Part shown: positions 4,381 through 34,690 of the stretch, one piece after another
Numbering within the stretch: the stretch's first letter is position 1
Layout: each line of letters begins with the position of its first letter
NCBI RefSeq assembly: GCF_016025255.1
Contig: NZ_CP065592.1
Span: 1,717,122-1,781,121 of the forward strand
Origin: Sphingosinicella flava
Lineage (GTDB): Bacteria; Pseudomonadota; Alphaproteobacteria; Sphingomonadales; Sphingomonadaceae
DNA length: 64,000 bases
Direction: 5' to 3'
Notes under the pieces: model-generated
The model's input: only the letters and a program-made list of their open reading frames with translations
Databases searched by the model: none
What the model was told of the DNA's origin: nothing
Program-made: the position numbers and the translations under genes

Positions 4381-5519
4381 GAGCGATGACCAAACTGAAG
4401 GTGATGACCGTCGTCGGCACGCGACCGGAGATCATCCGGCTCTCGCGGGTGCTGTGTGCCCTGGACCAGCACTGCAACCATGTGCTCGTCCACACCGGGC
4501 AGAATTATGACTATGAACTGAGCCAAGTGTTCTTTGATGATCTCGGGATCCGTATGCCGGATCGCTTCCTCGAGGCTGCCAAGGGCAGCCCGTCGGCCAC
4601 GATCGGGCATATACTGATTGCCATGGAAGAGGTGCTGAAGGCGGAAAATCCTGATGCTTTGCTGGTTCTAGGCGACACCAATAGCTGCCTTTCAGTGATC
4701 CCTGCGAAGCGCCTTCGCGTTCCCGTCTTCCACATGGAGGCAGGGAACCGCTGTTTCGACCAGCGGGTGCCCGAGGAAACGAATCGAGTGATCGTTGATC
4801 ACACGGCGGATATCAACATGACGTACAGCGATATCGCGCGCGAATATCTATTGCGCGAAGGTCTGCCGGCGGATCGGATTATCAAGACCGGTAGCCCGAT
4901 GTTTGAAGTGCTCCATCACTACATGCCTCAAATCGACGCGTCAGATGTGCTTGCACGGCTAGGCCTCACTGAACATCAATATTTCGTCGTCAGCGCCCAT
5001 CGCGAGGAAAACATCGAATCAGATCGCACGTTCTTCCGCCTCGTCGATATCGTGAATTATCTGGGCGAGAGCTACGATCAGCCAGTCATTGTTTCAACTC
5101 ACCCCCGGACCAAGAACCGAATAGATGCAGCCGGCGTTTCCTTCCACCCGCATGTGCAACTCGGAAAGCCGCTCGGCTTCCACGATTACGTGCGTCTGCA
5201 GAAATCCGCTCGTGCAGTGCTGTCCGACAGTGGAACTATCACGGAGGAGGCTTCGATCCTTAATTTTCCTGCGCTTAACATCCGTGAGGCACATGAGAGG
5301 CCGGAAGGCATGGAAGAAGGTGCGGTAATGCTAACTGGGCTCAACCTTGATCGGGTCCGGCAGTCGTTATCCATCCTTGAAGATCAAGCTCGGGGTGAAC
5401 AGCGTGACCTACGCCTCGTGTCTGATTATTCGATGCCCAACGTTTCTGCTAAGGTCGTTCGAATCCTGCACAGCTACACGGATTACATCCGCCGTGTGGT
5501 ATGGCGAGAGTATGACTGA
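4377..5519 (+). CDS. fnlC: UDP-N-acetyl-L-fucosamine synthase (C2 epimerase), FnlC/WbjD/CapG family
   Basis: This UDP-GlcNAc 2-epimerase-fold enzyme carries out the last step to UDP-L-FucNAc. It opens with VMTVVGTRPEIIRLSRV and contains HMEAGNRCFDQRVPEE, SAHREENI and SDSGTITEE, all family hallmarks. I chose ATG 4377, which overlaps the fnlB stop as ATGA and gives 380 residues; ATG 4386 is an alternative. An in-frame upstream start at 4323 would lie inside fnlB and adds residues unlike the family, so it was discarded. Confidence 0.92.
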   Translation: MRAMTKLKVMTVVGTRPEIIRLSRVLCALDQHCNHVLVHTGQNYDYELSQVFFDDLGIRMPDRFLEAAKGSPSATIGHILIAMEEVLKAENPDALLVLGDTNSCLSVIPAKRLRVPVFHMEAGNRCFDQRVPEETNRVIVDHTADINMTYSDIAREYLLREGLPADRIIKTGSPMFEVLHHYMPQIDASDVLARLGLTEHQYFVVSAHREENIESDRTFFRLVDIVNYLGESYDQPVIVSTHPRTKNRIDAAGVSFHPHVQLGKPLGFHDYVRLQKSARAVLSDSGTITEEASILNFPALNIREAHERPEGMEEGAVMLTGLNLDRVRQSLSILEDQARGEQRDLRLVSDYSMPNVSAKVVRILHSYTDYIRRVVWREYD

Positions 5520-5522
5520 GCC

Positions 5523-6761
5523 GTGCGGATTCTAATTGTTAGCCAATACTTCTGGCCAGAGAATTTCAGAATCAACGACCTAACAGACGAGCTATCGCGC
5601 CGGGGGCACGAGGTGACCGTGCTGACCGGAGAGCCGAACTATCCCGAAGGACGCATCTTTCCCGACTTTTGCTCAAATCGGAAAGCCTACCGGTGTTTCG
5701 GAGACGCTACTGTCATCCGCGTCCCCATTGTGCCGCGTGGAAATACAAGTCTGCGCTTGGTATTCAACTATTTGAGCTTCGCGCTAAGCGCCTCGATCCT
5801 TGGCCCGCTGCGCTTGCGCGGGCGCCGATTCGACGCAATTTTTGTATTTCAAACCTCACCCATAACAGCGGCGCTGCCCGCAATACTGTTGCGACGCATC
5901 AAACGGGCACCCATGCTGATGTGGATTCTCGACCTGTGGCCTGACACATTGTCCGCCATCGGCGTCGTCAAGTCCCCACGCCTACTCCGCTTGGTCGCAC
6001 ACCTAGTGTGTTTTGTGTACAAAAGGTGTGATCGGATTCTGCTTCAATCGCGTGCATTTTCACCCAAAGTCACCTCGTTGGTAGGGGGAAGTGAAGCGCT
6101 CCGTTATTTTCCGGGATGGGCAGAAGCTGTTTTCGATCGAGGGGACATACCAGTTGCCATGCCGCCGGAACTGGTTCCGTACGCTGACGATTTCAAGATC
6201 TTGTTTGCCGGCAATATCGGGGAAGCGCAGGACTTTCCGGCGATCCTGAATGCGGTCGAAGCCCTGAGAGATACCCCCCGGCTACGGTGGATTATCGTCG
6301 GAGATGGTCGGGCCGCGCCACATGTGCATGAGGAGGTCAAGCGTCGAGGGTTAGGCGACAAAATCATCTTCTTGGGTCGATACCCCTTGGAGCGAATGCC
6401 CTCCTTCTTAAATAGCGCCGATGCGTTACTCGTGTCGCTTCGCAAGGAGCCAATCTGGAGCATGACCATCCCCGGCAAGGTGCAAGCTTACCTCACGACG
6501 GGCAAGCCCCTACTGGCGATGCTGGACGGTGAAGGTGGCCGCGTCGTTGCCGAGGCAGAGGCAGGGCTAGTTGGCCCAGCTGGAGACAGCGCTGCGCTAT
6601 CTGCCAACGTGTTGCGCTTGATGAAAAGTGATACAGAAACTCGCAGGCGAATGGGACGAAACGGTCAACGATACGGAAAACGGGAGTTTGACCGCGAGCG
6701 TTTGGTGGACGCGCTCGAAGGCTGGATAGAAGAGTGCCGTGAAGATCAACATCACTCGTAG
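5523..6761 (+). CDS. wbuB: Glycosyltransferase, GT4 family, WbuB-like (probable L-FucNAc/L-FucNAm transferase)
   Basis: This 412-residue GT-B glycosyltransferase starts at GTG 5523, three bases after the fnlC stop. The N-terminus (ILIVSQYFWPENFRIND, then GHEVTVLTGEPNYPEG) is typical of WbuB/WcaI-like enzymes. The C-terminal nucleotide-sugar domain shows FAGNIGEAQDF, IVGDG and an acidic LDGEGGR region. It is cytosolic, probably membrane-associated, and adds the sugar made by the upstream genes to a lipid-linked glycan. WbuB in E. coli transfers L-FucNAc, so the adjacency is consistent. Exact donor and acceptor are inferred. It is the last gene of the operon. Confidence 0.85.
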   Translation: MRILIVSQYFWPENFRINDLTDELSRRGHEVTVLTGEPNYPEGRIFPDFCSNRKAYRCFGDATVIRVPIVPRGNTSLRLVFNYLSFALSASILGPLRLRGRRFDAIFVFQTSPITAALPAILLRRIKRAPMLMWILDLWPDTLSAIGVVKSPRLLRLVAHLVCFVYKRCDRILLQSRAFSPKVTSLVGGSEALRYFPGWAEAVFDRGDIPVAMPPELVPYADDFKILFAGNIGEAQDFPAILNAVEALRDTPRLRWIIVGDGRAAPHVHEEVKRRGLGDKIIFLGRYPLERMPSFLNSADALLVSLRKEPIWSMTIPGKVQAYLTTGKPLLAMLDGEGGRVVAEAEAGLVGPAGDSAALSANVLRLMKSDTETRRRMGRNGQRYGKREFDRERLVDALEGWIEECREDQHHS

Positions 6762-7056
6762 CCACGGCCTTTGTATCGAGCTCATTGGGCGATTTGCTAA
6801 TCTATCACACGGAGCGGATGCCATTGATAGCGATAGGCCTAGGTTTTTGGTAGACTATTCTGCTTCGATTTAAACTTCTCGGCTCGGCCATTAATTCACC
6901 CTAAATCTCCTTCACAACTCCCGTTTCCCTGAGCCTTAAACACTTAGTCCAACGACTAAATCTCACGCCGAACGTCTTTTAGAATGTATGGAGAAGGTGC
7001 AACGTTCACCTTCCGCCCTATAGGAGACGTAACTTCTATAGAGAGGGATCTATCCT
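6762..7056. other. Intergenic region, no gene recognised
   Basis: These 295 bases separate the polysaccharide operon from two small minus-strand genes. The base composition is visibly more A+T-rich than the core genes on the right. I see no convincing reading frame, no long hairpin with a T tract for the operon end, and no recognisable RNA gene. A weak stem (AGAGGGATC / TATCCTCT, about 7041-7056) lies just after the stop of the minus-strand gene and could be a minor terminator. Confidence 0.5.
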
Positions 7057-7293
7057 CTAGTAATACGCTACGGCGCACGTGATGTTAGCTGTTCTGTTCC
7101 AAGTGCGGTATTCTCCGGCATTCTGAGCTTGGAGATAGGCATCCGCTACCATCCGAGCCTTCTCACATACTTCTGCCGGCGATCCGCCGTTTCTCCTGAC
7201 AATCTCATATTGCTGTTTCGCTGTCGTCGGAGCGTCGCTGCAGGCTGCGAGCTGCGGGAGGCCTGCGGCAGTGATGATGAACTTCAGATTCAT
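7057..7293 (-). CDS. Small predicted lipoprotein of unknown function
   Basis: A 78-residue product is read from ATG 7293, whose ATGA overlaps the stop of the upstream gene. This coupling decides the start over a longer frame beginning at 7338. The N-terminus (NLKFIITAAGLPQLAAC) resembles a signal peptide with a lipobox-like LAAC. The remainder has two further cysteines (EVCEKA and NITCAVAYY) and no motif I recognise. It is probably exported together with its neighbour. Confidence 0.55.
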   Translation of the reverse strand: MNLKFIITAAGLPQLAACSDAPTTAKQQYEIVRRNGGSPAEVCEKARMVADAYLQAQNAGEYRTWNRTANITCAVAYY

Positions 7294-7727
7294 TCTTGGA
7301 TCATCCGCTGGATCTCGGCGTCCGAGACGCGAGTGCAACTCCCTAACAGCTTACTGCTTGGAGACATCCCGGTTGAACCCAACATCACGGGTTTGTCTGC
7401 ATAGAAAACCGCAGCCATTTGCTCGAGGCCGGTATAGCCGCCATAACTGTTCTTCGCGTTCAGGGATAACATGATCGTCCAACGAACAGGCCTGCCGTCC
7501 TTGAACTTGACTTTGACAGGTGGGTAACAGGCCGAGAAGTTCGTGACCGATCCGGCATCGAGAAGATTATCACGCAACGCCTTGGCAATGAAGGGGAGTG
7601 TCTGCTCAGGCGACATCTCCCGATAGGCGCTAAGGTCCACGTTCTTACCATTGGCAAAACCCGCAGCCGGCTGTGCCGCTGCCAGCACGGCTACCAACCA
7701 CACGAGGTCGTTCTTTAGATTGTGCAT
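7290..7727 (-). CDS. Hypothetical exported protein
   Basis: This 145-residue protein has a short N-terminal hydrophobic signal (LVWLVAVLAAAQPAAGFA) and a probable cleavage after FA near residue 25. The mature part has two cysteines (SACYPP and LGSCTR). I do not recognise the family. It forms a two-gene unit with the small lipoprotein gene downstream. The codon usage is less G+C-rich than in the core genes, fitting an accessory region. Confidence 0.55.
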   Translation of the reverse strand: MHNLKNDLVWLVAVLAAAQPAAGFANGKNVDLSAYREMSPEQTLPFIAKALRDNLLDAGSVTNFSACYPPVKVKFKDGRPVRWTIMLSLNAKNSYGGYTGLEQMAAVFYADKPVMLGSTGMSPSSKLLGSCTRVSDAEIQRMIQE

Positions 7728-8226
7728 CGTCCCTCCCTTTCAGGGGCGACGCTTCGATCAGCTTCCACGTCGCTCCTATGTCCTCTCGGGGCGACGGCCG
7801 AAGCCGGATGTTGGAAACCTGCTTACAGACAGGCGCATGCGCCTTTACCGTTGCCGGCTGGACATACGCGCATGCCACCCGGCCACAGCATGCTGTCGAC
7901 CGAGCACTGTAAGAAGGGGTTTCCACGCCCCGCTCCTCGGCTTTCACGAGGAGTGCGAGCAATTTGCTCGACTGGCATACAGAAGCAAGAAGTTTTGCAG
8001 TGATGTGACTCGCACTCGAAAGAAGCTGCCAGCAGATATGCGATCTGCGGACAGGGATGGCCTGTATTTGTCGCGGAACGCAGAGACATTGAGCGGAGCA
8101 AGATTCCGCTGGCTTCACTTTCAGACCCAGAGCAATTCGCCCATCGAGACTGAGGCTACTCTCAGCCTCTGAGACGACAGGTGCTCCATCGAGACGTATG
8201 GCTCAATGAGATTGCGGGAAGACGGC
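7728..8226. other. Intergenic or decayed region without a supported gene
   Basis: About 500 bases between the exported-protein pair and the DUF2924 relic. Several overlapping open frames exist on both strands, but their translations are Cys- and Arg-rich and resemble no family. I therefore see no gene here. The region lies in a strip that ends with broken recombination genes and may be leftover island DNA. Confidence 0.4.
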
Positions 8227-8655
8227 ATGCCGAAGAACATCTCTTGGGAGCAAAAGCGCGGCCCAATCAGAACACCCCAGCTCAGGCTGTTGTGGGAACA
8301 AGAATTCGGGGTACCCGCTCCCGGATGGCTTAGGTCATGAGCTTCTTTATCGTGGCATCCGGTGGAAGGAGCAGGAAAAGGCCCATTGTGGCTATACGCG
8401 ATCGCTTCAGCTCGAACTCACGTGCCCTGCCGAGCAGCTGGATTCCTCGGCAGACTTGGACGTGGAGCGTCGGCTTGCCCTCAAGCCCGGGACGCGAATA
8501 GTCCGCGAGTGGCAGGGGCGCACCTTTCAACTTCTGGTTCTTCAGGACGGCTTTCAGTATGAAGGGGAGCGCTACGCTTCGCTTTCGCAGATCGCCAGGG
8601 TAGTGACCGGAACGAAGTGGGTCGGGGCCCCGGTTTTTTGGACTGACACACTCGA
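8227..8655 (+). pseudogene. DUF2924 protein gene, frameshifted
   Basis: From ATG 8227 the frame reads MPKNISWEQKRG and then TPQLRLLWEQEFGVPAPGWL, typical of the DUF2924 N-terminus. It then meets a stop at 8337. Removing one G near 8332-8334 restores the family sequence LSHELLYRGIRWKEQEKAH and joins the downstream frame, which ends in the conserved GTRIVREWQGRTF, YEGERYASLSQIA and GTKWVGAPVFW. One base insertion therefore broke the gene. DUF2924 genes commonly sit directly upstream of large serine recombinases in alphaproteobacterial islands and prophages, as here. Confidence 0.75.
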
Positions 8656-8676
8656 CTCCCGCAGGGATTTAACTGC

Positions 8677-9255
8677 GTGGCTCCCCCTTGCATTCCATCC
8701 CACCCAATCCGTTGTGCCATCTATACCCGCACGTCCACGGAAGAAGGTCTGGACCAGGCATTCCAACAGCCTCGATGCGCAGAAGGAAGCCTGTGCTGCC
8801 TACATCACGAGCCAGAAGCACGAGAGATGGACTCTGCTTCGGGGCGATTATGATGACGGTGGTTTTTCCGGTGGTACAATGAACCGACCAGCTCTCAACC
8901 GGCTGCTAGAGGACGTCCGCGCGCGCCGAGTAGATGTGATCGTCGTGTATAAGGTGGACCGCCTGACGCGTCATCTTAGCGACTTCCCGCGCATGGTAGA
9001 GATTCTGGACGCAGTCCACGCGAGCTTCGTGTCGGTGACACAAGCGTTCAATACTACGACGAGCATGGGACGGCTGACGCTGAACGTCCTCCTGTCGTTC
9101 GCGCAGTTTGAGCGAGGGGTGACCGGCGAAGGCATCCGCGACAAGATCGCAGCCTCCAAAGCGAAAGGCATGTGGATGGGCGGCGTAGTCCGGTCGGATA
9201 CGACGTCGTGGAGAGGAAATTGGTGGTCAATGCGGAGGAAGCACTCCATTTAACG
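8677..9255 (+). pseudogene. Large serine recombinase (resolvase family), frameshifted and truncated
   Basis: Starting from GTG 8677 the frame reads IRCAIYTRTSTEEGLDQAF, the N-terminus of a serine recombinase with the catalytic Ser in RTSTEE. An extra C near 8763 shifts the frame, after which NSLDAQKEACAAYI, DDGGFSGGTMNRPAL, DVIVVYKVDRLTR and FAQFERGVTGEGIRDKIAASK continue in another frame. A second shift near 9190 follows: GYDVVERKLVVNAEEAL resumes in a third frame, and similarity ends at about 9255. The long C-terminal DNA-binding part is missing. The gene is dead, a scar of a former mobile element beside tRNA-Phe. Confidence 0.85.
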
Positions 9256-9351
9256 CCCAATTTGCCCGATCAATTCACATGGCGAAATGAAGCTGCATGC
9301 CCGCGATAACACCCAATCTCTGTATGGCCGTGTTTCGGAGATGAGACGTAA

Positions 9352-9427
9352 TGGTGCCCAGGGACGGGATCGAACCGCCGACACTGCGATTTTCAGTCGC
9401 ATGCTCTACCAACTGAGCTACCTGGGC
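9352..9427 (-). tRNA. tRNA-Phe (anticodon GAA)
   Basis: The reverse complement folds as a 76-nt tRNA with an encoded CCA. The acceptor stem GCCCAGG pairs with CCTGGGC, followed by discriminator A and CCA. The D arm is TAGCTCAGTTGGTAGAGCA, the anticodon loop is CTGAAAA with GAA at positions 34-36, and the T arm contains GGTTCGATCC. The 3' end faces the broken recombinase. I did not see a second copy of its 3' end elsewhere in the window. Confidence 0.97.
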
Positions 9428-9482
9428 ATGTCCGGCGAAGCGGAAGCCGCGCTATAAGCAGGGGGCGGGCGGGCTGTCCAGC

Positions 9483-9674
9483 TTATTTCTCCTCGAAATC
9501 GCCGGAGGCGGGCTCGGCGGGGAGGCCGGGGACGCGATAGCCTTCGCCAAGCCAATTCAAGAGGTCACGATCCTTGCAGCCCCGACTGCAAAAGGGGGCG
9601 TGATCCGCGCTTTCCGGCTTGCGGCAGAGCGGGCAGACGGCGCGGGTGCGGTCAGGGGTGCTGGCTGTGGACAT
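9483..9674 (-). CDS. yacG: DNA gyrase inhibitor YacG (zinc-binding)
   Basis: This 63-residue protein binds zinc with CPLC near residue 14 and a second pair in CSRGCKDRDLLNWL; the C-x2-C...C-x3-C pattern and the LxxWL segment are YacG hallmarks. In E. coli YacG binds GyrB and inhibits gyrase. I chose the start at MSTASTPD; longer frames upstream only add Arg/Pro-rich sequence. It overlaps the 3' end of the RNase gene by 23 bases and is the last gene of the maf-rng-yacG group. Confidence 0.88.
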   Translation of the reverse strand: MSTASTPDRTRAVCPLCRKPESADHAPFCSRGCKDRDLLNWLGEGYRVPGLPAEPASGDFEEK

Positions 9675-10644
9675 CGCCCGCCGATATGGCGCGGCCCGGA
9701 TCGGCCCGCAAGGCGGCCGTGGCGCCGATCCGGACGGACAGCGCCGCGATCCAGTCCGGCCGCGCCGCGATCGCCGCGACGACCGCGGGATGGGCAAGGA
9801 TGGTCCGTTCTCCCATGCCGCCAGAACGCTCCGCGCGGCGCAGCAGGGCGCGGGCGGCAGCCTGCACCGGATCGGATTGCAGAAGTTCCGGGATCGACGC
9901 GCGCTCCCGCCGCCGCACGATCTGCAGGAAGCCGAAGCCGTTCATCGCCGTCCGTTCGAAGGGCTGGGGCAATTCGGCATCGAGCGCGGCGGCCACGGCC
10001 TGGCGGTCGGCCTTCGCCGCGAGGGTCGGCAGATCGAGCCCGATCGACCCGCCGATGCCGAGGCGCCGGATCGCCCGCCCCGCCGCCGCGGCGCCGGCCT
10101 TGGCGAGGGCGAGAGGCGGCAATGGCCCGTCGACGTCGAACAAGGTCATGGCCGGCGTCAGCGCCATCCGCAGCGCGCCGCCGGCAAAGGCGATCTCGCC
10201 GGTTTCCGCTTCCTCAAGCAGTTCCGACCAGCCCGCATCTTCGAATCGATCGGGGCCGTGCGCCGGATGCGGCACGACACTATGGCCGGCGGCGATCAGG
10301 CGGTCGCGGAGAGAGGGGCCGGATCGGGAAGCATCGTCCGTCATGCGCGCCTTGGCCCGCTTCGGGCGGCCGGGCTCGGGCAGGGCCTCGCGCACGATCT
10401 CGACATGCAGGGCCTGGCCCTCGGTCAGGCCGCCGGGCAAGGGCTCGAGCAACGCCTCCACCCCGCAATCGAGTTGAACAAGGCCCCGGCGGCCTGGAAT
10501 CATGATGCCGGCAAGGCGTCCGCGCGCCACCGTGCCGACGCGCAGGGTTTCATCCAGTTCGATGGCGGCTTCGACGATCCCCTCGCCTTGGATCCGGATG
10601 GCGCGGCTTTCCCCGATTCCGTCCTCGAACAGCCACATAGCCAT
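9652..10644 (-). CDS. Ribonuclease E/G family protein, short form
   Basis: This 330-residue protein resembles the compact RNase G-like proteins of alphaproteobacteria. An S1-like N-terminal section (RVGTVARGRLAGI) is followed by the catalytic-core segments GIGGSIGLDLPTL and FERTAMNGFGFLQIVRRRER, equivalent to the conserved RNase E/G part with acidic residues. It is shorter than E. coli RNase G (about 490 residues). The location between maf and yacG is the usual alphaproteobacterial order. The role, RNA processing or decay, is inferred from the family. Confidence 0.82.
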   Translation of the reverse strand: MAMWLFEDGIGESRAIRIQGEGIVEAAIELDETLRVGTVARGRLAGIMIPGRRGLVQLDCGVEALLEPLPGGLTEGQALHVEIVREALPEPGRPKRAKARMTDDASRSGPSLRDRLIAAGHSVVPHPAHGPDRFEDAGWSELLEEAETGEIAFAGGALRMALTPAMTLFDVDGPLPPLALAKAGAAAAGRAIRRLGIGGSIGLDLPTLAAKADRQAVAAALDAELPQPFERTAMNGFGFLQIVRRRERASIPELLQSDPVQAAARALLRRAERSGGMGERTILAHPAVVAAIAARPDWIAALSVRIGATAALRADPGRAISAGDVHSQHP

Positions 10645-10656
10645 GTTAGGCGCCGG

Positions 10657-11226
10657 TCATGCCAGCGGATAGCCGGCGGCGGCGAGCAGCGCGCGGGTTT
10701 CGAAGAGCGGCAGGCCGACGACGCCGGAATGGCTGCCGCCGATCGTGCGGATCAAGGCCTCGGCGCGGCCCTGGATCGCATAGCCCCCTGCCTTGCCCAG
10801 TCCCTCTCCGCAGGCGACATAGGCGTCGATCTCGGCATCCGACAGGCGCTTGAAGGCGACGATCGTGTCGGCGATGCGGGTGCGGGCGCGGCCTGCGCCG
10901 TCGATCGCGCAGATCGCCGAGAGGGCGTGGTGGCGCCGCCCGGACAAAAGGCCGAGCAGGCGGCGCTGCACCTCTTCCGTGTCGGCGGGCGGCAGGATGC
11001 GGCGGCCGACCGCAATGGCCGTGTCGCCCGCCAGGATAATCGTCCCCGCTTCTCGCGGCACCGCGCGCGCCTTCGCCTCGGCGAGGCGAAGCGCATAGGC
11101 ACGCGGCAATTCGCCGGGCAGCGGACTTTCGTCGATCTCGGGGCTGTGAACGGCATCCGGCACGACGCCGATCCGCGCGAGCAGATCCAGGCGCCGCTGG
11201 CTGGACGAAGCGAGGATGAGCCGCAC
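10657..11226 (-). CDS. maf: Maf family nucleoside triphosphate pyrophosphatase
   Basis: This 189-residue Maf/HAM1-like protein has the N-terminal motif LILASSSQRRLDLL and the catalytic segment ILAGDTAIAVGRRILPP. A GGSHSGVVGLPL segment near the C-terminus is also typical. Maf proteins hydrolyse dTTP/UTP or modified nucleotides. The start is GTG 11226. It lies 14 bases downstream of infA on the same strand and 12 bases before the RNase gene, which suggests one transcript. Confidence 0.92.
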   Translation of the reverse strand: MRLILASSSQRRLDLLARIGVVPDAVHSPEIDESPLPGELPRAYALRLAEAKARAVPREAGTIILAGDTAIAVGRRILPPADTEEVQRRLLGLLSGRRHHALSAICAIDGAGRARTRIADTIVAFKRLSDAEIDAYVACGEGLGKAGGYAIQGRAEALIRTIGGSHSGVVGLPLFETRALLAAAGYPLA

Positions 11227-11240
11227 CGGCGGACCCGCGC

Positions 11241-11459
11241 TTATTTGAAGCGGTAGGTAATCCGACCCTTGGTCAGATCGTAGGGGGTGAGCTCGACGAG
11301 CACTTCGTCGCCCACGAGCACGCGGATGCGGTTCTTGCGCATCTTGCCCGCGGTGTGGCCGAGAATTTCGTGATCATTCTCAAGCTTCACGCGGAACATG
11401 GCATTGGGGAGAAGCTCCACCACCTGCCCGCGCATTTCCAGAAGTTCTTCCTTGGCCAT
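11241..11459 (-). CDS. infA: Translation initiation factor IF-1
   Basis: This 72-residue S1/OB-fold protein reads [19 protein letters not shown], with [21 protein letters not shown] style features and the C-terminal KGRITYRFK of bacterial IF-1. It binds the ribosomal A site during initiation. Length and sequence are standard. It heads the infA-maf-rng-yacG run. Confidence 0.97.
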
Positions 11460-11527
11460 TCAGTCTCTTCAATATCAGGTAAAGTTGCGGGGCATGTAAC
11501 GACTTGAGCTTCAAAAGGGAAGCGGGG

Positions 11528-12793
11528 CTAGTCCGGCTGGCCGAAGCGGTCGCCCGCTTCCGCGATCGCGGCGAAGATGCGGGCGGCTTCCTCCTCCGTG
11601 AGACAGTAAGGCGGCATGACATAGATGGTGTTGCCGAGCGGCCGGAGGAGGAGGCCCTTTTCCAGGAAGAAAGCGCGCAGGGCAGGCGCAAGGCTGGACA
11701 GATAACCGGCGTCTCCGGCCTTCAGGTCGACCGCGGCGACCGCACCGATATGGCGGGGATTGTCAAAGGCGGGATGACCGGCGAGCGTTTCGAGGCCGCG
11801 GGCCAGGGCGGCGCCGACGCGGGCGATCCGGCCGATCACGTCCTCCTCCTGCCAGATCTCTATGTTGGCGGCGGCGGCGGCGCAGGCGATCGGGTTCGCG
11901 GTATAGCTGCTCGAATGGTAGAACATATCGGCGCGGTCGTTCGACAGATGCGCCTCGAATATGGCTTCGCTGGCAAGGGTCGCGGCGAGTGGGAGCGCGC
12001 CGCCGGTCAGCCCCTTGGCGATGCAGAGGATGTCGGGCGCGATCCCTGCCTGCTCCACGGCGAGGAAGCTGCCGGTGCGGCCCCAGCCGGTCATCACCTC
12101 GTCCGCGATGAAGAGAATGCCGTGACGGGCGCAGATCGCCGCCATCTCCCTTAGCACCGCCGCCGGGTAGATCAGCATGCCGCCCGCGCCGAGAAGGAGC
12201 GGCTCGATGACGAAGGCCGCCGGACGGTCCGGCCCCGTCGCGGCGCTTTCCAGCGCGTCGAGCGCCGCCTGTTCCCGGCCGGGCGCGGGAAAGGGAATGG
12301 TGCCGACGTCGAAGAGCAAGGGTTCGTAGCGGCGGTTGAAGACGCCGCGCGCGCCGATCGACATCGCGCCGATCGTGTCGCCATGATAGCTGTGCTCGAG
12401 AACCAGGATGCGATGCCGGGCCTCGCCGCGCCGGTGCCAGTAGCCGAGCGCCATCTTGAGCGCGACCTCGACGGCGGTCGATCCGCTGTCGGAGAAGAAG
12501 ATGCGGGTGAGCGAGGGTGGCGTCATCGCGACGAGCGCCGCCGCGACCCGCTCGGCCGGTTCATGGGTGTGCCCCGCGAAAATGAGCTGGTCGAGCCTGC
12601 CCGCCTGGGCGGCGATGGCGGCTGCGATGCGCGGCTCGCAATGGCCGTGCGTCGTCACCCACCAGCTCGAGATGCAGTCGATGAGGGTGCGGCCGTCGGC
12701 GAGATGCAAGAGCGCGCCTTCCCCCCGCTCGACGCGCGGAATATCCTCGCCGAGCCCATGCTGGGTGAAGGGATGCCAGACGGCGGACATCAC
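11528..12793 (-). CDS. bioA: Adenosylmethionine-8-amino-7-oxononanoate aminotransferase
   Basis: This 421-residue class III PLP aminotransferase converts 8-amino-7-oxononanoate to diaminopelargonate with SAM as donor. It shows WHPFTQH at the N-terminus, SWWVTTHGH, FFSDSGSTAVEVALKMA, HSYHGDTIGAMS, the FIADEVMTGWGRTG segment and the PLP lysine in CIAKGLTGG. Its ATGA start overlaps the bioD stop, and bioD overlaps bioF, giving a bioF-bioD-bioA operon. The biotin synthase gene bioB is not in this window. Confidence 0.95.
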   Translation of the reverse strand: MMSAVWHPFTQHGLGEDIPRVERGEGALLHLADGRTLIDCISSWWVTTHGHCEPRIAAAIAAQAGRLDQLIFAGHTHEPAERVAAALVAMTPPSLTRIFFSDSGSTAVEVALKMALGYWHRRGEARHRILVLEHSYHGDTIGAMSIGARGVFNRRYEPLLFDVGTIPFPAPGREQAALDALESAATGPDRPAAFVIEPLLLGAGGMLIYPAAVLREMAAICARHGILFIADEVMTGWGRTGSFLAVEQAGIAPDILCIAKGLTGGALPLAATLASEAIFEAHLSNDRADMFYHSSSYTANPIACAAAAANIEIWQEEDVIGRIARVGAALARGLETLAGHPAFDNPRHIGAVAAVDLKAGDAGYLSSLAPALRAFFLEKGLLLRPLGNTIYVMPPYCLTEEEAARIFAAIAEAGDRFGQPD

Positions 12794-13425
12794 ATCGCCT
12801 TCCGGATGGTGCCGAGATCCATCGCCGCCATCGCCGTCGCCAGCGAGGCCGCGTCCAGCCTGTCCAGCATCGGCAGCCGGCCGAGATGCGGCACGCCCGC
12901 GAGCTTCGGCACGATCCGCTCATTCTCCGGATGGGGATCGCCGATGAAGGCGATGCCCGCCACCGGCACGCCCCGCGCGCGGAGCGCCTCGACGCTCATC
13001 AGGCTGTGGTTGATCGTGCCGAGCCCGGTGCGCGCGCAGAGGATGACGGGCGCCGCGAGCCGCGCGAAATAATCCGCGATCAGCAGCGTTTCGGTGAGGG
13101 GCACGAGCACGCCGCCCGCGCCTTCGATGATCAGGGGTCCATCCTGGATAGGCGGCATCAGGCGCGCGAGGTCGATTTCCACGCCTTCCTCGCGCGCCGA
13201 AAGATGCGGCGATGCGGGCAATTGCAGGCGATAGGCCTCGGGAAGAATGCGGCTGGCGGCGAGGCCGGAGAGGCGACGGACGGTCTCGCTGTCGCCTTCC
13301 GGATCGATGCCGGATTGAACGGGTTTCCAGTAAAAACCGCCGAGCGCGCCCGCCAGGCCCGCCGCGAACACCGTCTTGCCGACGCCGGTATCCGTACCGG
13401 TGACGATGATCCTGCTCACCATCAA
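12790..13425 (-). CDS. bioD: Dethiobiotin synthase
   Basis: This 211-residue P-loop enzyme forms the ureido ring of dethiobiotin from diaminopelargonate, CO2 and ATP. The N-terminal GTDTGVGKT is the P-loop; KPVQSG, the EGAGGVLVPL segment and ARTGLGTINHSL are conserved in BioD. It overlaps its neighbours on both sides by four bases, so translation is coupled. Confidence 0.95.
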   Translation of the reverse strand: MMVSRIIVTGTDTGVGKTVFAAGLAGALGGFYWKPVQSGIDPEGDSETVRRLSGLAASRILPEAYRLQLPASPHLSAREEGVEIDLARLMPPIQDGPLIIEGAGGVLVPLTETLLIADYFARLAAPVILCARTGLGTINHSLMSVEALRARGVPVAGIAFIGDPHPENERIVPKLAGVPHLGRLPMLDRLDAASLATAMAAMDLGTIRKAM

Positions 13426-14558
13426 GAGACCCTTTCCATGATATCGGCCAGCGCGCCGGACAGCGCGTCGATATCGTCCAGCCCGGCGTTGAGCGTCAGT
13501 GAAATGCGCAGGCGCGACGTCCCGTCCGGCACGGTCGGCGGCCGGATGCCGCGCACGTCGAACCCCGCCTCCTGCAACGCTGCGGCGGCCGCCATGGTGC
13601 GCCCTTCACCGCCCAGAATGATGGGCAGGATCTGGCTGTCCGGCCGGGGAAGGCCGTAAGGCGCGCAAATCCGCTTCCCGGCATAGGCGACGCGCTCCGC
13701 CAGGCGCGCGCGGAGATCGTCGCCCGCCGCGATCCGGTCGAGCGCGGCGGAAACGGCGACCGCCATCAGCGGCGACGGCGCGGTCGAGAAGATGAAGGGC
13801 CGCGCCCGATTGACGAGAAAATCCATCATGACGCGCGGACCGGTGACGATGGCGCCTTCCACGCCCAGGGCCTTGCCGCACGTGTGGAGGGCGATGACAT
13901 TGTCCCGCCCCTCCAGCGCGGCGGCGAGGCCGCGCCCGGCCGGGCCGAAGACCCCCGTCGCATGCGCCTCGTCGATCAGCAGCCAGGCATCCTCCGCCTC
14001 CGCGAGAGCGGCCAGCGCATCAATAGGCGCACGGTCGCCGTCCATCGAATAGAGGGTTTCGACGGCGATCCATACCCGCCCCGTGCCGCCCCGCCGCCGC
14101 CAGGCGCGGATCGCGGTTTCGAAGGCATCGGCGTCATTATGGGCGGCGAAAACATGTTCCGCCCGCGCCCGCCGCAGGCCGTCATGGGCGCTGGCATGGA
14201 CGAGCGCATCGGCGACGATGAGATCGCCCCTCTGCGGCAGGGTCGACAACAAAGCCATGTTCGCGGCAAAGCCGGAGGAGAAGAAAAGCGCCGTTTCGGC
14301 TCCGAAAAAGACCGCGGCCTTCGCCTCCAGCGCCTCATGTTCGGGCGCATTGCCGCGGAGCAGCCGGGATCCGCCCGATCCCACCGGCACGCCCGCCGCA
14401 ACCGCCTCCGCCACCGCGCGCGCGATCCCCGGATCGCCCGCCAGGCCGAGATAGTCGTTCGAAGAAAAATCCCGTCCGGCGCGCGGCGAAAGCCGCCGCA
14501 GCCGTCCCGCCGCGCTTAATTGCGCGAGCTGATTTTCGAAGGCCCCGATCCGCGTCAT
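13422..14558 (-). CDS. bioF: 8-amino-7-oxononanoate synthase
   Basis: This PLP-dependent alpha-oxoamine synthase condenses pimeloyl-ACP/CoA with alanine. Motifs: FSSNDYLGLAGD, GSGGSRLLRGN, LIDEAHATGVFGPAGRG and HTCGKALGVEGA with the PLP lysine. I prefer the start MTRIGAFENQ at 14558 (378 residues). An upstream ATG at 14591 adds 11 residues unlike the family and would lie beside the terminator stem of hppA. It is the first gene of bioFDA. Confidence 0.94.
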   Translation of the reverse strand: MTRIGAFENQLAQLSAAGRLRRLSPRAGRDFSSNDYLGLAGDPGIARAVAEAVAAGVPVGSGGSRLLRGNAPEHEALEAKAAVFFGAETALFFSSGFAANMALLSTLPQRGDLIVADALVHASAHDGLRRARAEHVFAAHNDADAFETAIRAWRRRGGTGRVWIAVETLYSMDGDRAPIDALAALAEAEDAWLLIDEAHATGVFGPAGRGLAAALEGRDNVIALHTCGKALGVEGAIVTGPRVMMDFLVNRARPFIFSTAPSPLMAVAVSAALDRIAAGDDLRARLAERVAYAGKRICAPYGLPRPDSQILPIILGGEGRTMAAAAALQEAGFDVRGIRPPTVPDGTSRLRISLTLNAGLDDIDALSGALADIMERVS

Positions 14559-14597
14559 GCCGCCTGATAGACGGATGGAAACCGGCCGCAACAGAAA

Positions 14598-14625
14598 AGG
14601 CCCGCCCGAATATTCGGACGGGCCT
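14598..14625 (-). terminator. Rho-independent terminator after hppA
   Basis: A nearly perfect inverted repeat with arms AGGCCCG and CGGGCCT and an inner GAATATTC palindrome lies 23 bases past the hppA stop. On the minus strand it is followed by TTTCTGTTG. It sits between hppA and the bioF start. Confidence 0.7.
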
Positions 14626-14648
14626 CTCCCTTGAAAAAGATCAGCCGA

Positions 14649-16796
14649 TCAGCCCGCGCCGTGTCCCGCCAGCGCCGCGAGGAGCAGCAGGGCCACGATG
14701 TTGGTGATCTTGATCATCGGGTTGACGGCGGGACCGGCGGTGTCCTTGTAGGGATCGCCGACCGTGTCGCCCGTCACGGCCGCCTTATGGGCTTCCGAGC
14801 CCTTGCCGCCGTAATTGCCGTCCTCGATATATTTCTTGGCATTGTCCCAGGCGCCGCCGCCGCTCGTCATCGAGATGGCGACGAACAGGCCGGAGACGAT
14901 CACGCCGAGGAGCAGGGCGCCGAGGGCCGCGAAGCCGTTGGCCTGGCCCGCGGTCCAGCTGATGACGTAATAGACGAGGATCGGCGCCAGCACCGGCAGC
15001 AGCGAAGGGATGATCATCTCCCGGATTGCTGCCTTGGTGACGAGGTCCACCGTCCGCGCATAATTGGGGCGGCTGGTGCCTTCCATGATGCCCGGATTGT
15101 CGCGGAACTGGCCGCGCACTTCCTCGACCACCGCGCCGCCCGCGCGGCCGACGGCGGTCATGCCCATCGCGCCGAAGAGGTAAGGCAGAAGCGCGCCGAG
15201 GAGCAGGCCGACGATGACATATGGATTGGACAGCGAGAAATCGACCGCCACGCCCGGGAAGTAGAGCCCGAGATCGGTCGTATAGGCGCCGAACAGCACC
15301 AGGGCGGCGAGACCGGCCGAACCGATCGCATAGCCCTTGGTCACCGCCTTGGTCGTGTTGCCGACCGCGTCCAATGCGTCGGTGCGCACCCGTACGGCAT
15401 CCTCAAGCCCCGCCATTTCGGCGATGCCGCCCGCATTGTCGGTGACCGGACCATAGGCGTCCAAGGCCACGACCATGCCCGCCAGCGCCAGCATCGCGGT
15501 GGCCGCGAAGCCGATGCCGATGAGGCCCGCAAGCTGATAGGCGACGATGATGCCGACGCAGATGACGAGGGTCGGCAGCGCCGTCGATTCCAGGCTGATC
15601 GCGAGGCCCTGGATGACGTTGGTGCCATGGCCGGTTTGGGAGGCCTTGGCGATCGACTTCACCGGGCGGTAGTTGGTGCCGGTATAATATTCGGTGATCC
15701 AGACGAGGAGGCCGGTGACCGCAAGGCCGACCAGCATCGAATAGAAGAGATCCCAGCCGGTAAAGCCCGCCGCCGCAGCCGCGACCTGCGGTTCGACTTC
15801 AAGACCCGCCGCTTGTTCCGCGCCGCCAATGACGGCGTTCATGTCGCCCAGCGCCCATTGCGTGACGATATAAAGCGCCGGGACCGACAGGATCGCAGTG
15901 GTCCAAAAGCCCTTGTAGAGGGCGCCCATGATCGATTCCTTGGCGCCCAAACGGACCATGTAGGTGCCGATGATGGAGGTGATGATGCACACGCCGCCGA
16001 TGATGAGCGGCAGCGACATGAGATTGAGGATATTGGACGCCGCGCTGCCGACGAGCAGGGCGACGAGCACCATCGTCGCGCCGACGGTCACGACATAGGT
16101 TTCGAAAAGGTCGGCGGCCATGCCCGCGCAATCGCCGACATTGTCGCCGACATTGTCGGCGATCACGGCCGGGTTGCGGGGATCGTCCTCCGGAATGCCC
16201 GCCTCGACCTTGCCGACGAGGTCGGCGCCGACGTCGGCGGCCTTGGTGAAGATGCCGCCGCCGAGGCGCGCGAAGATGGAGATGAGGGAAGCGCCGAACG
16301 CCAGCGCGACGAGCGCGTCCACCACTTCACGGCTGGCAGGTTCGGCGCCGCCGTCGACCAGCACGTAGAAGAAGATGGCGATGGCGAGGAGCGCGAGGCC
16401 CGCGACCAGCATGCCGGTGATGGCGCCCGCGCGGAACGCGACGGTGAGGCCCCTCTGCAGGCTGGTCCGCGCGGCTTCGGCGGTGCGCACGTTGGCGCGC
16501 ACGGAAATGTTCATGCCGATATAGCCCGCGACGCCCGACAGGATCGCGCCGATCAGGAAGCCGATCGCCTCGGTCAAACCGAGAAAGTAGAATACCAGCG
16601 CAGCAACCACCACGCCGACGACGGCGATGGTGGTATATTGGCGGCCGAGATAGGCCTTGGCGCCTTCCTGGATGGCGCCGGCGATTTCGATCATCCGCTC
16701 GTTCCCGGCGGGCGCGGCGAGCACCTGCCGCGAGGTCACGAAGCCATAGAGCACTGCGAGTATCCCGCAGGCGATGGCGACTAGCACAACCGTCAT
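14649..16796 (-). CDS. hppA: Membrane-bound proton-translocating pyrophosphatase, K+-independent type
   Basis: This 715-residue polytopic inner-membrane pump couples PPi hydrolysis to proton export. It has the catalytic loop [19 protein letters not shown] followed by [20 protein letters not shown], and a second acidic loop near [16 protein letters not shown]. The segment [10 protein letters not shown] has Lys where K+-dependent enzymes have Ala, so it should be K+-independent. The start at 16796 ([14 protein letters not shown]) begins directly with the first membrane segment; an in-frame start 96 bases upstream gives a hydrophilic extension and was rejected. It lies downstream of thiL. Confidence 0.95.
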
Positions 16797-16901
16797 TGAG
16801 TTTCCTTCCCCTGATTGTTCCCGGGCAGGATTGCTTTGCTTTGGCATGCCCGGTTTGGCGCCAAGGTGTAACAGCGGCGCGCGCGGTTGCAAGAGTCGCG
16901 A

Positions 16902-18224
16902 TCAGGCGCCGTGTTCGTAGCCGAGGCGGGAGGGCAGCGGGATTTCCTCTCCATTTTCGACGAGGCGGAGGCCCAGGCCTTCACGGACCTCGCCGATCAT
17001 CGTCATAAGAAGGCCGAGCCTGTCGGCAATCCTGCCGATCTCTTCGCTCTTCTCGGGCGGGGCGGCGAACAAGAGCTCATAATCGTCCCCCGCCGTCGCC
17101 GCCCGGAGGCGCGCCGGGCGGTCGTTGCCCAAGGCAATCTCGAAATCTCCCGACAGGGGAATGCGGGCAAAATCGACGACAAAAGCAGCGCCGCTCGCCT
17201 CCGCCATGCGGGAAGCGTCGATCAACAGACCGTCCGACACGTCCATCATCGCATCGACATGGGGCGCGAGCGCCTGTCCCGCCGCCAGGCGTGGCATCGG
17301 GCGGCGATAGCGTTCGGCCAGTCCCCCCGGCCCCTCCAGGCGCCCTGCGGCAATGTCCAGCCCGGCGCCGGCATCGCCGATGGTGCCCGTTACCCAGACA
17401 AGATTGCCCGGTCGCGCCCCGTTGCGCGCAGGCGCATGAGCCGCACTGCCGATTGCGGTCAGGCCAAGCACGCGCGCCGACCCCTCCGGCACCGCCACCG
17501 TATCTCCGCCGAGCAGAGGCGCGGCGAACGTCCGGGCCGCCTCGCCTAATCCCCGTACAAAACGGTCATCCCAATCCGCATCGCCTGCAAGGCAATAGCC
17601 TGCGATCAGGCCGAGCGGCCCCGCGCCCTTCGCCGCGAGATCGGACAGATTCACCGCAACCAGCTTCCAGGCGACATCTTCCGGCGCGTCGCTGGGCAGA
17701 TAGTGGACCCCTTCCACGATCATATCATGGGTCAAGACCAGCTTCGTCCCGCTTACTTCTAAAACGGCGGCATCGTCGATTAGTCCACGGGCGGCGGGAT
17801 CGGTGACGACGCCGCGCAGACTGGAAATGAAGTCGCGTTCTAAAGCCCTCCCCCTTGATGGGGGAGGGTTGGGTGGGGGTGATGCCGGACGTAGAGCTAA
17901 GAAGATAGCTTCAGCAACACCTTCATGGTTCTCAAGAACGTCATTGTTCCAAAAGCGAAGTATACGATAACCTTCGGCCTCGATCATTTTGCTTCGGTTC
18001 GCATCCGCTTGTTCCGAATGCTGCCCTCCGTCGACTTCAACAACAATCTTGGCGCGATGACTCGCGAAATCGGCGATATAATGCCGGATCGGCACTTGGC
18101 GTCGGAACCGCTGCTCCGGGAAATCCTCCCGCAACAACTTCCACATCGTCTTTTCGGCTTCCGTAGGATTACCGCGCAATTCCCGTGCGCGCTTCGTCGA
18201 TCCTGATGGCGGGTGGCTTTTCAC
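16902..18224 (-). CDS. thiL: DUF559 endonuclease domain fused in frame to thiamine-monophosphate kinase
   Basis: This 440-residue frame starts at GTG 18224. Residues 1-113 are a DUF559 (Vsr-like PD-(D/E)xK) endonuclease: NPTEAEKTMWKLLRE, IADFASHRAKIVVEVDGGQH and GYRILRFWNNDVL. Residues 114-124 (SPPPNPPPSRG) are the translation of a repeat. From about 125 on it is ThiL, which phosphorylates ThMP to ThDP, with IDDAAVLEV, AVNLSDLAAKGA, GGDTVAVPEG, MMDVSDGLLIDASRMA and AGDDYELLF. There is no ATG, GTG or TTG in frame between the nuclease and the ThiL part, so ThiL appears to be made only as a fusion or from a non-standard start. Gene order nusB-thiL-hppA is the usual one, so the nuclease cassette is the newcomer. 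Confidence 0.85.
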   Translation of the reverse strand: MKSHPPSGSTKRARELRGNPTEAEKTMWKLLREDFPEQRFRRQVPIRHYIADFASHRAKIVVEVDGGQHSEQADANRSKMIEAEGYRILRFWNNDVLENHEGVAEAIFLALRPASPPPNPPPSRGRALERDFISSLRGVVTDPAARGLIDDAAVLEVSGTKLVLTHDMIVEGVHYLPSDAPEDVAWKLVAVNLSDLAAKGAGPLGLIAGYCLAGDADWDDRFVRGLGEAARTFAAPLLGGDTVAVPEGSARVLGLTAIGSAAHAPARNGARPGNLVWVTGTIGDAGAGLDIAAGRLEGPGGLAERYRRPMPRLAAGQALAPHVDAMMDVSDGLLIDASRMAEASGAAFVVDFARIPLSGDFEIALGNDRPARLRAATAGDDYELLFAAPPEKSEEIGRIADRLGLLMTMIGEVREGLGLRLVENGEEIPLPSRLGYEHGA

Positions 18225-18288
18225 GATGGCACCCTACGCCAACCATCACCCCCACCCAACCCTCCCCCGTCGAGGGGGAGGGCTTTAG
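17840..18288 (-). mobile_element. DUF559 endonuclease cassette bounded by 45-bp inverted REP-like repeats
   Basis: The left end 17840-17884 (CTAAAGCCCTCCCCC to GGGTGGGGGTGATG) and the right end 18244-18288 are inverted copies, 43 of 45 bases identical by my comparison. Each contains its own palindrome, a C-rich and a G-rich arm around TGATG or GTCGA. Between them is only the DUF559 reading frame (18224 to about 17885). The outer edges coincide with the nusB stop codon on one side and the first ThiL codons on the other, indicating insertion exactly between two otherwise adjacent genes. I saw no Y1 transposase or IS transposase in the unit. Confidence 0.75.
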
Positions 18289-18740: not shown

Positions 18741-18811
18741 GAGGCGCGGCATAGCGGCACGCCGCGAAAAGCACCACACCCCTCCCGCTAGCGCCACTCC
18801 CCACTTTCTGT

Positions 18812-18838
18812 CGTCATTCCGGCGGAAGCCGGAATCTC
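18812..18838. repeat. Family B REP-like palindrome
   Basis: A single palindrome, CGTCATTCCGGCGGAAGCC with its mirror half GGAATC, lies between nusB and the alpha/beta hydrolase. It is the half-unit of the paired elements seen at 29500, 31989, 39691 and 43223. Confidence 0.75.
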
Positions 18839-22203: not shown

Positions 22204-22812
22204 TTGGTGAAAGGCAGCAGGGTTTTGAGCGAGACGGAACGAAAGCGGGCACGGTTCCACGGACGGATGGACAATCGCGGCCAGCCCTGCTCCGCCCCCG
22301 GCTGCGCTGAGCCCGGCGAATTCCGCGCGCCTGCGGATCGCCGCGCCAGTTTCGACGGGCCGGGCGACTGGCGCTGGCTCTGCCTCGACCACGTCCGCGC
22401 CTTCAACAGCGGCTATAATTATTTCGAAGGCATGAGCCCGGAGGAGATCGAAGCGGCGCAAACGCCCTATGGCGGCTGGGACCGGGAAACCCGCGCCTTC
22501 GCAACCGCGGGCACCACGCCCCCGCCCAAATGGGCCGACTTCTCCGATCCATTGGACGCCATCGGCGCCCGCTTCAAGCGCCGCGCGCATGAGCGGAAAG
22601 ACGGCAAGGAGCTGAGTGAGAAGGACCGCAAGTCCCTTCGCATCCTCGGCCTCGACGTCGACGCCGACCGCAAGGCGCTCCGCCAGCGCTACACCGCGCT
22701 CGTCCACAAATTCCATCCCGACAGGAATGGCGGCGACCGCAGCCACGAACGCGCGCTGCAGGCGGTGATCGAAGCCTATCAGCAGCTAAAAGGTCGTCCC
22801 GCGTTCGCTTAA
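22204..22812 (+). CDS. J-domain protein with N-terminal Cys/His motif
   Basis: This 202-residue protein is a conserved alphaproteobacterial J-domain protein. The N-terminal half has CSAPGCAEPGEFRAP and WRWLCLDHVRAFNSGYNYFEG, whose Cys/His residues look like a metal site. The J domain is at the C-terminus (residues about 145-198) with the HPD tripeptide in VHKFHPDRNGG. It probably recruits DnaK. It is divergent from bolA. Confidence 0.87.
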   Translation: MVKGSRVLSETERKRARFHGRMDNRGQPCSAPGCAEPGEFRAPADRRASFDGPGDWRWLCLDHVRAFNSGYNYFEGMSPEEIEAAQTPYGGWDRETRAFATAGTTPPPKWADFSDPLDAIGARFKRRAHERKDGKELSEKDRKSLRILGLDVDADRKALRQRYTALVHKFHPDRNGGDRSHERALQAVIEAYQQLKGRPAFA

Positions 22813-22829
22813 GCCCTCTCATCCCTCTC

Positions 22830-22944
22830 GAGCCCTCCCCCTCGATGGGGGAGGGTTGGGTGGGGGTGATCTACGACGTAGAGCGCGTTCCTTCCGAAAA
22901 CATCACCCCTCCCCAGCCCCTCCCCATCGAGGGGAGGGGTTTAG
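22830..22944. mobile_element. Short family A element, an internally deleted DUF559 cassette
   Basis: Left end AGCCCTCCCCCTCGATGG to GGGTGGGGGTGAT (22831-22870) and right end CATCACCCC to GGGGTTTAG (22901-22944) are inverted. The 30-base core reads, on the minus strand, GCTCTACGT just before the left repeat. That corresponds to the codons Ala-Leu-Arg that end the DUF559 domain in the full cassette. This looks like a non-autonomous derivative in which nearly all of the gene was lost. The right end's TTA supplies the TAA stop of the next gene. Confidence 0.7.
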
Positions 22945-23405
22945 CGCGCCATCTCCTCCGCGATCTCGGCAAGCTGGCTGGCCACCTGCCCCCAACCCGC
23001 TTCGAAGCCCATCTCCCGATGCTTCTTCATCGCGTCCTCGGTCCAATGCCGCGCCGTCACCGTGTAACGCGTCTTGCCGTCCTCCGCGTCCTCGAATGTG
23101 CACACCCCAACCATGAACGGCCCCTGCGGCACCCAGCCTGCCTTGAAAGCATCGGTAAAGGCGATCCGTTCGTTCGGCGTCACTTCCAGGAACACGCCGT
23201 CCCCCTCCGACGTCTCGCCATTCGGGCCGGTCATCACGACGGCGGAGCGACCGCCGGCACGGAAATCCTGCTCGATCACTTTCGTCGTCCAAGGCTTCGG
23301 CGCGAACCATTCCGGCAGACGCTCTGTCCAGGCACGATAGACGATCTCGCGCGGCGCATCGATGATGCGAGTGATCGACAATTCGAATCCGTTCGTATCG
23401 GTCAT
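22941..23405 (-). CDS. SRPBCC/AHSA1 family protein
   Basis: This 154-residue START-like lipid/ligand-binding fold protein shows ITRIIDAPREIVYRAWTE at the N-terminus and a C-terminal helix MGFEAGWGQVASQLAEIAEEM typical of the AHSA1/COG3832 group. Function is unknown. It is last in a five-gene minus-strand run with the GST, PhnB-like, DUF1428 and VOC genes, 16 bases after the GST stop. Its stop codon lies within the adjacent repeat. Confidence 0.87.
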   Translation of the reverse strand: MTDTNGFELSITRIIDAPREIVYRAWTERLPEWFAPKPWTTKVIEQDFRAGGRSAVVMTGPNGETSEGDGVFLEVTPNERIAFTDAFKAGWVPQGPFMVGVCTFEDAEDGKTRYTVTARHWTEDAMKKHREMGFEAGWGQVASQLAEIAEEMAR

Positions 23406-31988: not shown

Positions 31989-32068
31989 GTCATTCCCGCG
32001 AAGGCGGGAATCCAGACGATGTTGGGGCCTTGCCTCGAGTCAATCTGAATTCCGCCTTCGCGGGAATG
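31989..32068. repeat. Family B paired REP-like palindromes
   Basis: The left unit GTCATTCCCGCGAAGGCGGG and the right unit CCGCCTTCGCGGGAATG are inverted copies about 40 bases apart, between the small membrane protein gene and nhaA. Confidence 0.8.
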
Positions 32069-34662: not shown

Positions 34663-34690
34663 CCCTCTCCCGTCAAAGGGAGAGGGGATT
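34663..34690. terminator. Hairpin between convergent genes
   Basis: Arms CCCTCTCCC and GGGAGAGGG around GTCAAA lie between the stops of the DUF885 gene and etfA, suitable as a bidirectional terminator. It resembles family A palindromes but with a different loop and no tail. Confidence 0.65.

Follow-up and report, generated by a model that had tools for sequence, protein, structure and literature searches.

The window analysed here is a 64,000-nucleotide stretch of the 2.42-Mb, single-contig genome of Sphingosinicella flava (G000), in which a gene for a DUF559 nuclease is enclosed by two inverted copies of a repetitive extragenic palindrome (REP), forming a 449-bp unit (17840-18288) flanked by nusB and thiL. 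Alignment of the two arms, 17840-17884 on the plus strand at the thiL side and 18244-18288 in inverted orientation on the minus strand at the nusB side, gave 43 identical positions out of 45, as a preliminary description of the locus had claimed, and a repeat finder lengthened them to 55 nt (to 17894 and from 18234, respectively) at 89% identity. Also as described, both arms are palindromic, CCCTCCCCC-N5-GGGGGAGGG, and carry an inward-pointing tail, TTGGGTGGGGGTGAT; the thiL-side copy reads CCCTCCCCC-TTGAT-GGGGGAGGG, with its G-rich tail running into the unit, and the nusB-side copy overlaps the nusB stop codon. The enclosed gene lies on the minus strand and is assigned by profile match and structure model to DUF559 (PF04480; domain at 17892-18197, G000:C1:1735013-1735318; E 5e-35, 120.1 bits against a curated cut-off of 20.6), and its neighbours are identified by domain match as nusB (PF01029; 18285-18758, minus strand) and thiL (AIRS domains). 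That nusB and thiL are normally adjacent is borne out by 80 named ThiL loci, 61 of which have nusB in reach; in 55 of these 61 a gap of 5-256 bp separates the two genes, and in four the gap exceeds 1 kb.

The idea of a single, separate DUF559 gene survived only in part. DUF559 is indeed enclosed by the repeats, but its frame contains no stop ahead of thiL; instead the 3′ repeat is translated in frame (PASPPPNPPPSRGRA) and leads into ThiL, so that DUF559, a repeat-encoded PPPNPPPSRGRA linker and ThiL make up one 440-codon open frame (16902-18224, minus strand). The frame is likewise open, over 443 aa, at the equivalent place in the congener (G053). Within the window frame, the ThiL body is preceded by a TTA codon in the region where relatives start.

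Among 44 family proteins the residues R17, W28, F40, E63, D65, G66, H69, D74, R77 and R90 are invariant, and E24 and D52 are kept in at least 90%; the conserved acidic residues and histidine of the window protein (E24, D52, E63, D65, H69 and D74) are probably the catalytic ones. A structure model of the protein (predicted local distance difference test score, pLDDT, 85.7) has as its nearest structures a Neisseria DUF559 protein (3hrl), the homing endonuclease I-Bth0305I (3r3p) and Vsr (1cw0). For 3r3p the match to the model reaches a Foldseek E value of 3e-5 with template-modelling (TM) scores of 0.65/0.75, with an hmmsearch E value of 2.5e-4, and the modelled fold of the catalytic domain fits a Vsr-like (EDxHD) homing endonuclease. 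The profile of the Vsr mismatch endonuclease itself, TIGR00632, scores 14.5 bits, far below its cut-off of 97.85. The protein of the unit has DUF559 only, with no known transposase domain, as the preliminary description had it, and no second domain fit for strand transfer, so that joining would have to be left to the host. The available text of a study in Caulobacter reports that VsrA, a DUF559 protein, is needed for the DNA damage response when a cytosine methyltransferase is missing (PMC12907096), which suggests that a DUF559 member acts on DNA in cells.

Enclosure by inverted repeats is widespread among DUF559 genes. We scored it as the best local alignment between the left 250 bp and the reverse complement of the right 250 bp, and call a gene boxed when this score reaches 20 (thresholds of 18 and 25 were computed alongside). 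PF04480 occurs in 102 of the 119 sampled genomes of the sphingomonad family, with 270 matches by table sum; 115 of these, from the best-scoring places, were scored, and 112 had full flanks. In this set 92 of 112 DUF559 genes are boxed as against 1 of 848 shifted windows of the same loci, and at a threshold of 25 the figures are 78 of 112 and no control window. Flanks paired across genomes reach the threshold in 110 of 957 cases, and 41 of the 112 loci reach it in direct orientation because each repeat is itself palindromic. At the level of genes, 2 of 457 other genes at the same loci are boxed, and 1 of 134 of similar size. The preliminary description had anticipated such repeats beside other DUF559 genes, and their being equally common beside unrelated genes would have spoken against it; the family-wide counts agree with it on both points, as do those from other families of the class, where 16 of 29 and 9 of 12 loci (L303-L314), or 25 of 41, are boxed compared with 0 of 84 and 0 of 83 control windows. 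Seven later family loci, separate from the 112, add six boxed genes (L300, L318, L319, L320, L323 and L328; flanks of 350 bp for the last five) and one failure (L324). On plasmids, 6 of 10 DUF559 loci read from 43 records with 300-bp flanks are boxed, including all three from Deinococcus, whose neighbours are partly shared; those below threshold come from Synechocystis, Picosynechococcus, A. brasilense and E. coli.

The window genome alone has five DUF559 genes, four of them boxed, each by a different repeat family: at nusB-thiL, between what we take to be serA and serC (L007), between presumed YqeY and dnaG genes, and between two genes that we read as acyl-CoA carboxylase-type. The annotated order in S. 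parapaucimobilis is likewise YqeY-DUF559-dnaG. The fifth gene (L006) has repeats on one side only. As a separate observation, not used as evidence given the crude gene calling, the neighbours lie on the same strand in 45 of 91 DUF559 triplets and 124 of 409 others.

The unit was first proposed as a candidate new mobile unit; its enclosure by repeats stands, but it is not unique to this place: it is one of those five genes, and its repeat recurs elsewhere. Within the window, the palindrome pattern at up to 3 mismatches gives 7 matches (overlapping registers at 4 places) against 0.06 expected in shuffles; over the whole genome it gives 89 against 2 for a reversed control pattern, and palindrome plus tail gives 28 copies against none for the control. 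Many of the genomic copies are inverted doublets 82-84 bp apart, that is, REPINs, the gene-less REP doublets folding as hairpins that the available text of PMC3116915 describes. One such REPIN lies in the window at 22831-22942, where two inverted REPs without a gene form a single hairpin as single-stranded DNA (z -4.7). In 34 REPINs chosen by spacing and tail from loci of the window genome and its congener, the inner spacer measures 29-32 nt; 23 of the 34 have spacer ends whose match to the inner ends of the DUF559 unit exceeds that of 95% of shuffles. Inverted palindromes spaced at 418-420 bp, which occur at 265465-265883 and 744644-745064, were considered as further DUF559 units; the pair examined, 265465-265883, proved to consist of two REPs inserted into a coding region resembling sucB, and so is not a unit. 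Copies of the window family lie both in and beside this region (L014, G000:C1:265383-265905), which we named sucB from our own reading of the gene. A further palindrome in the window, at 34663-34686, is of another G-rich type (CCCTCTCCC..GGGAGAGGG).

Protein subtype and repeat go together. From 94 boxed loci in 52 genomes, we compared protein likeness with repeat likeness inside pairs among the 24 genomes with at least two boxed genes each, shuffling proteins within genomes and excluding syntenic pairs, those with alike outer flanks. Within genome pairs the DUF559 subtype predicts the repeat (observed 4.63; null -0.02, sd 0.74; 0 of 1000 permutations as high), and without genome blocking, mean repeat likeness in non-syntenic pairs is 0.70 at 60-70% protein identity versus 0.36 at 40-50%. 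The abundance of the window repeat also goes with its cognate gene. The repeat occurs in 7 of the 119 family genomes (28 copies in G000, 19 in G053, 15 in G001, 12 in G112, 4 in G095 and 2 each in G027 and G029), and only the first four of these have at least 10 copies. G000, G053 and G001 also hold the proteins that match the window DUF559 best (99, 81 and 56%), and the copies in G112 are a loop variant of the repeat, by which the DUF559 gene L137 of that genome is boxed, so that all four genomes with at least 10 copies carry a DUF559 gene boxed by the repeat; exceptions occur in low-copy genomes and in other repeat families. (The 12 copies in S. prati have coordinates identical to those of G112 and were not recounted.) For a second repeat family, present at 2-3 copies each in 4 of the 119 genomes, three (G104, G006 and G116) have a boxed gene. 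In a third, G108 has 40 copies and a boxed gene (L101), and G076 has 39 at up to 3 mismatches; the repeat count predicted a boxed gene in G076, and L318, whose flanks were read afterwards, is boxed by a close variant. In G089 a boxed gene of this family accompanies only 3 copies. A strict rule by which many copies imply the gene and the gene implies many copies was tried on 40 further genomes and these two additional families, and was dropped because it holds only partly.

Sites with and without the element can be compared at several junctions, and the filled and unfilled states that the preliminary description expected are found at three of them. At nusB-thiL, tblastn with the window DUF559 detected a relative in two loci only (L166 and L181), and units with the window repeat occupy this junction in Sphingosinicella sp. 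LHD-64 and Sphingomonas cavernae. The 55 short nusB-thiL gaps contain no window-type palindrome, and 5 of them contain some other G-rich palindrome; in G001 the cognate unit lies about 11 kb from an unfilled nusB-thiL. The serA-serC junction holds a unit in the window genome and, in the congener, another short inverted sequence without the unit. The junction of two genes whose proteins we read as CobS and CobT offers a graded series, with a second full DUF559 unit in S. cavernae, a REPIN in the congener and a lone REP palindrome in the window genome (27579-27607). A fourth site has a REPIN in the congener and none in the window genome. Between the two units of S. cavernae the likeness is 77% and stops at the outer REP palindromes; in L295 of that species (5505-17655), three DUF559 copies of the window subtype lie within 13 kb, two of them boxed and the third split over two frames. 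A lone-palindrome site (site A) was considered as a clean empty site and discarded, as deletion between its two palindromes can reduce a REPIN to a lone one. One intergenic gap is a shared landing spot for two kinds of REP, with a G-rich REPIN in the window (22808-22948) and a different, CGTC-like pair in the congener (L084, 9069-9183).

The enzyme known to accompany REPs, the REP-associated tyrosine transposase (RAYT), was considered as the driver and rejected. A search for Y1_Tnp (PF01797) found no match in the window genome, while the same search was positive in 5 of 14 control genomes. Across the family, 21 of 119 genomes have a match, the four richest in the window repeat not among them, and 38 of the 52 genomes with a boxed DUF559 gene have none. 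Of ten Y1 loci, eight were testable, and with a limit of 250 bp none of them is boxed; widening it to 400 bp brings in two, enclosed by a different repeat. Two Y1 loci in sphingomonads (L162 and L165) have other inverted ends within 400 bp, of the GGTGACAGTTTACTTAA type in L165. The window repeat bears no GTAG-type tag at the REP end and no terminal CGTC tag.

We consider it probable, on comparative sequence grounds, that DUF559 drives its own REP family, as a REP/REPIN system resembling that of RAYTs and REPINs but built on a Vsr-like nuclease of the homing-endonuclease type. The 449-bp unit would be the gene-bearing member of the family. Its nuclease would recognise its own REP, palindrome and G-rich tail together, probably as the single-stranded hairpin of inverted REPs, and would cut one strand at or near the AT-rich outer edge of the REP, whereupon host replication and repair might copy or re-insert the element into intergenic DNA. 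The REPINs scattered around the genome, in which about 30 nt separate two REPs, would be gene-less derivatives moved by the enzyme in trans, as is thought for REPINs with RAYTs. The suggestion in the preliminary description that DUF559 may stand to its repeats as RAYTs do to theirs is thereby supported, by analogy, from the subtype-specific repeats and the absence of Y1_Tnp.

Several observations weigh against this reading. Twenty of the 112 family DUF559 genes, L006 of the window genome among them, fall below the boxing threshold. The four repeat-rich genomes represent three genera, the window genome and its congener belonging to one, so shared descent explains part of the match between repeat and gene. 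G095, with 4 copies of the window repeat, has no more than a distant DUF559; in G026, which has three DUF559 genes of its own, the 3 copies of the second family lie at sites without a DUF559; G042 carries 16 copies of a repeat that differs from the query at 3 positions, and this repeat boxes none of the three DUF559 genes there. Among the 40 further genomes, the window repeat is present in only 2 and 4 copies in those of L166 and L181, which have the boxed gene at nusB-thiL, and in 1-2 copies in five others. No target-site duplication could be resolved at four sites compared between the window genome and its congener, where the sequences are too diverged. A unit beside trpA is common to eight loci in eight genera (L050, L055, L070, L077, L081, L092, L115 and L132); it is an old insertion kept in the tryptophan gene pair, and same-site units across so many genera mean that many units are inherited rather than moving. 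Finally, in the available text of PMC12907096 the authors interpret Caulobacter VsrA as a mismatch-repair nuclease.

The main rival holds that DUF559 is a free-standing homing endonuclease gene which cuts the middle of its cognate REPIN and is copied in, the REPINs being landing sites spread by other means. It has the fold relationship behind it, as the nearest relative outside DUF559 is a homing endonuclease, and it accommodates the cognate matching and the unit/REPIN pair at cobS-cobT equally well; REPIN inner ends also occur at both inner ends of the unit. Gene-less targets should then be common, yet all four genomes with at least 10 copies of the window repeat have a boxed gene (G042 is such a gene-less case, in another family), and the 55 unfilled nusB-thiL gaps are free of window-type palindromes. 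Nor was another driver for the REPINs found in a search that covered Y1_Tnp alone. We think homing unlikely, though it deserves more credence than the remaining alternatives.

Still less probable, in our judgement, is that DUF559 is a passenger, either as cargo or as a host gene for repair or defence, trapped between two REPs that serve as terminators or insulators, the REPs being spread by some other factor. The abundance of REPs in the window genome speaks for it, as does the description of the Caulobacter protein as a Vsr-like repair nuclease in the available text of PMC12907096; other genes, however, are almost never caught (2 of 457), and the repeat family varies with the DUF559 subtype rather than with the genome. 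The REPINs could also have been moved by a Y1 transposase, overlooked or since lost, and the architecture is that described for RAYT units in the accessible part of PMC2817692. This we regard as very improbable given a single-contig genome with no Y1_Tnp match in a search that succeeds in 5 of 14 controls and 21 of 119 family genomes, no boxed Y1 locus among the eight testable within 250 bp, and a repeat without the GTAG tag.

A second nuclease appears in a similar setting. The sole size-matched control gene found boxed (L096, 1505-1831, minus strand) codes for a relative of annotated GIY-YIG nucleases, with 57% identity to that of A. lipoferum, and sits between REPs of the CGTC type. A tblastn search of 335 sequences gave two GIY-YIG matches, both boxed: L096 by CGTC-type repeats and L109 (minus strand) by another repeat. 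On plasmids, 8 of 13 GIY-YIG loci (L335-L347, read from 33 records with 300-bp flanks) are boxed by CGTC-type repeats, one of them between sufB and sufC in Azospirillum lipoferum; three others score 17-18 and two lack repeats. Two Shinella loci share neighbours and are non-independent, and the GIY-YIG figures refer to fetched and plasmid loci alone. In the window itself, CGTC-type REP palindromes (GTCATTCCGGCGGAAGCCGGAATC and a variant) lie at 18810-18838 and 31989-32012. We raise as a tentative extension, which we find conceivable without leaning towards it, that two unrelated nucleases of the homing-endonuclease type drive RAYT-less REP families, DUF559 with G-rich REPs and GIY-YIG with CGTC-type REPs, in alphaproteobacteria and beyond, as the Deinococcus DUF559 loci would indicate. 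If true, this would fill a gap left by a 2013 survey, in whose available text CGTC REPs appear without a dedicated transposase (PMC3733652), and nuclease-driven REP elements would stand as a class that arose independently of RAYTs.

REPs are common bacterial repeats, and in the searched literature, as far as its accessible text extends, RAYT is the only enzyme tied to them. No title or abstract opening in that literature, whose scope mostly excluded subscription papers and preprints, links DUF559 or GIY-YIG with REPs. Should small nucleases of the homing type prove to drive further REP families, the many genes annotated simply as DUF559 or GIY-YIG "endonuclease domain" proteins would gain a testable role; they would be candidates for the missing enzyme of alphaproteobacterial REPs, and unrelated enzymes would have become partners and drivers of REPs on more than one occasion.

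Compared with known systems, the window repeat resembles the CGTC-tagged REPs in forming palindromic REP dimers of a kind that the available text of PMC3733652 describes as common in alphaproteobacteria and not tied to RAYTs, but it differs from them in sequence and lacks the CGTC tag. The gene-less elements share the ends of a gene-bearing element, as do the miniature inverted-repeat transposable elements (MITEs) of insertion sequences, whereas the unit has no known transposase domain and no resolved target-site duplication. I-Bth0305I and Vsr are matched by the predicted fold and by the conserved acidic residues and histidine of the window protein; unlike either, the DUF559 unit has terminal inverted repeats and gene-less derivatives, and TIGR00632 stays far below its cut-off. 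The closest parallel is the RAYT/REPtron, for which the accessible parts of PMC2817692 and PMC3116915 report a gene between two inverted REPs, a gene-specific REP family whose abundance tracks the gene, and hairpin doublets, all of which recur here. The enzyme of the window unit, in contrast, is a Vsr-like DUF559 nuclease and not a Y1/HUH transposase, and its repeat carries a G-rich tail in place of a GTAG tag; enzyme and repeat alike are unrelated to RAYT and the GTAG REPs.
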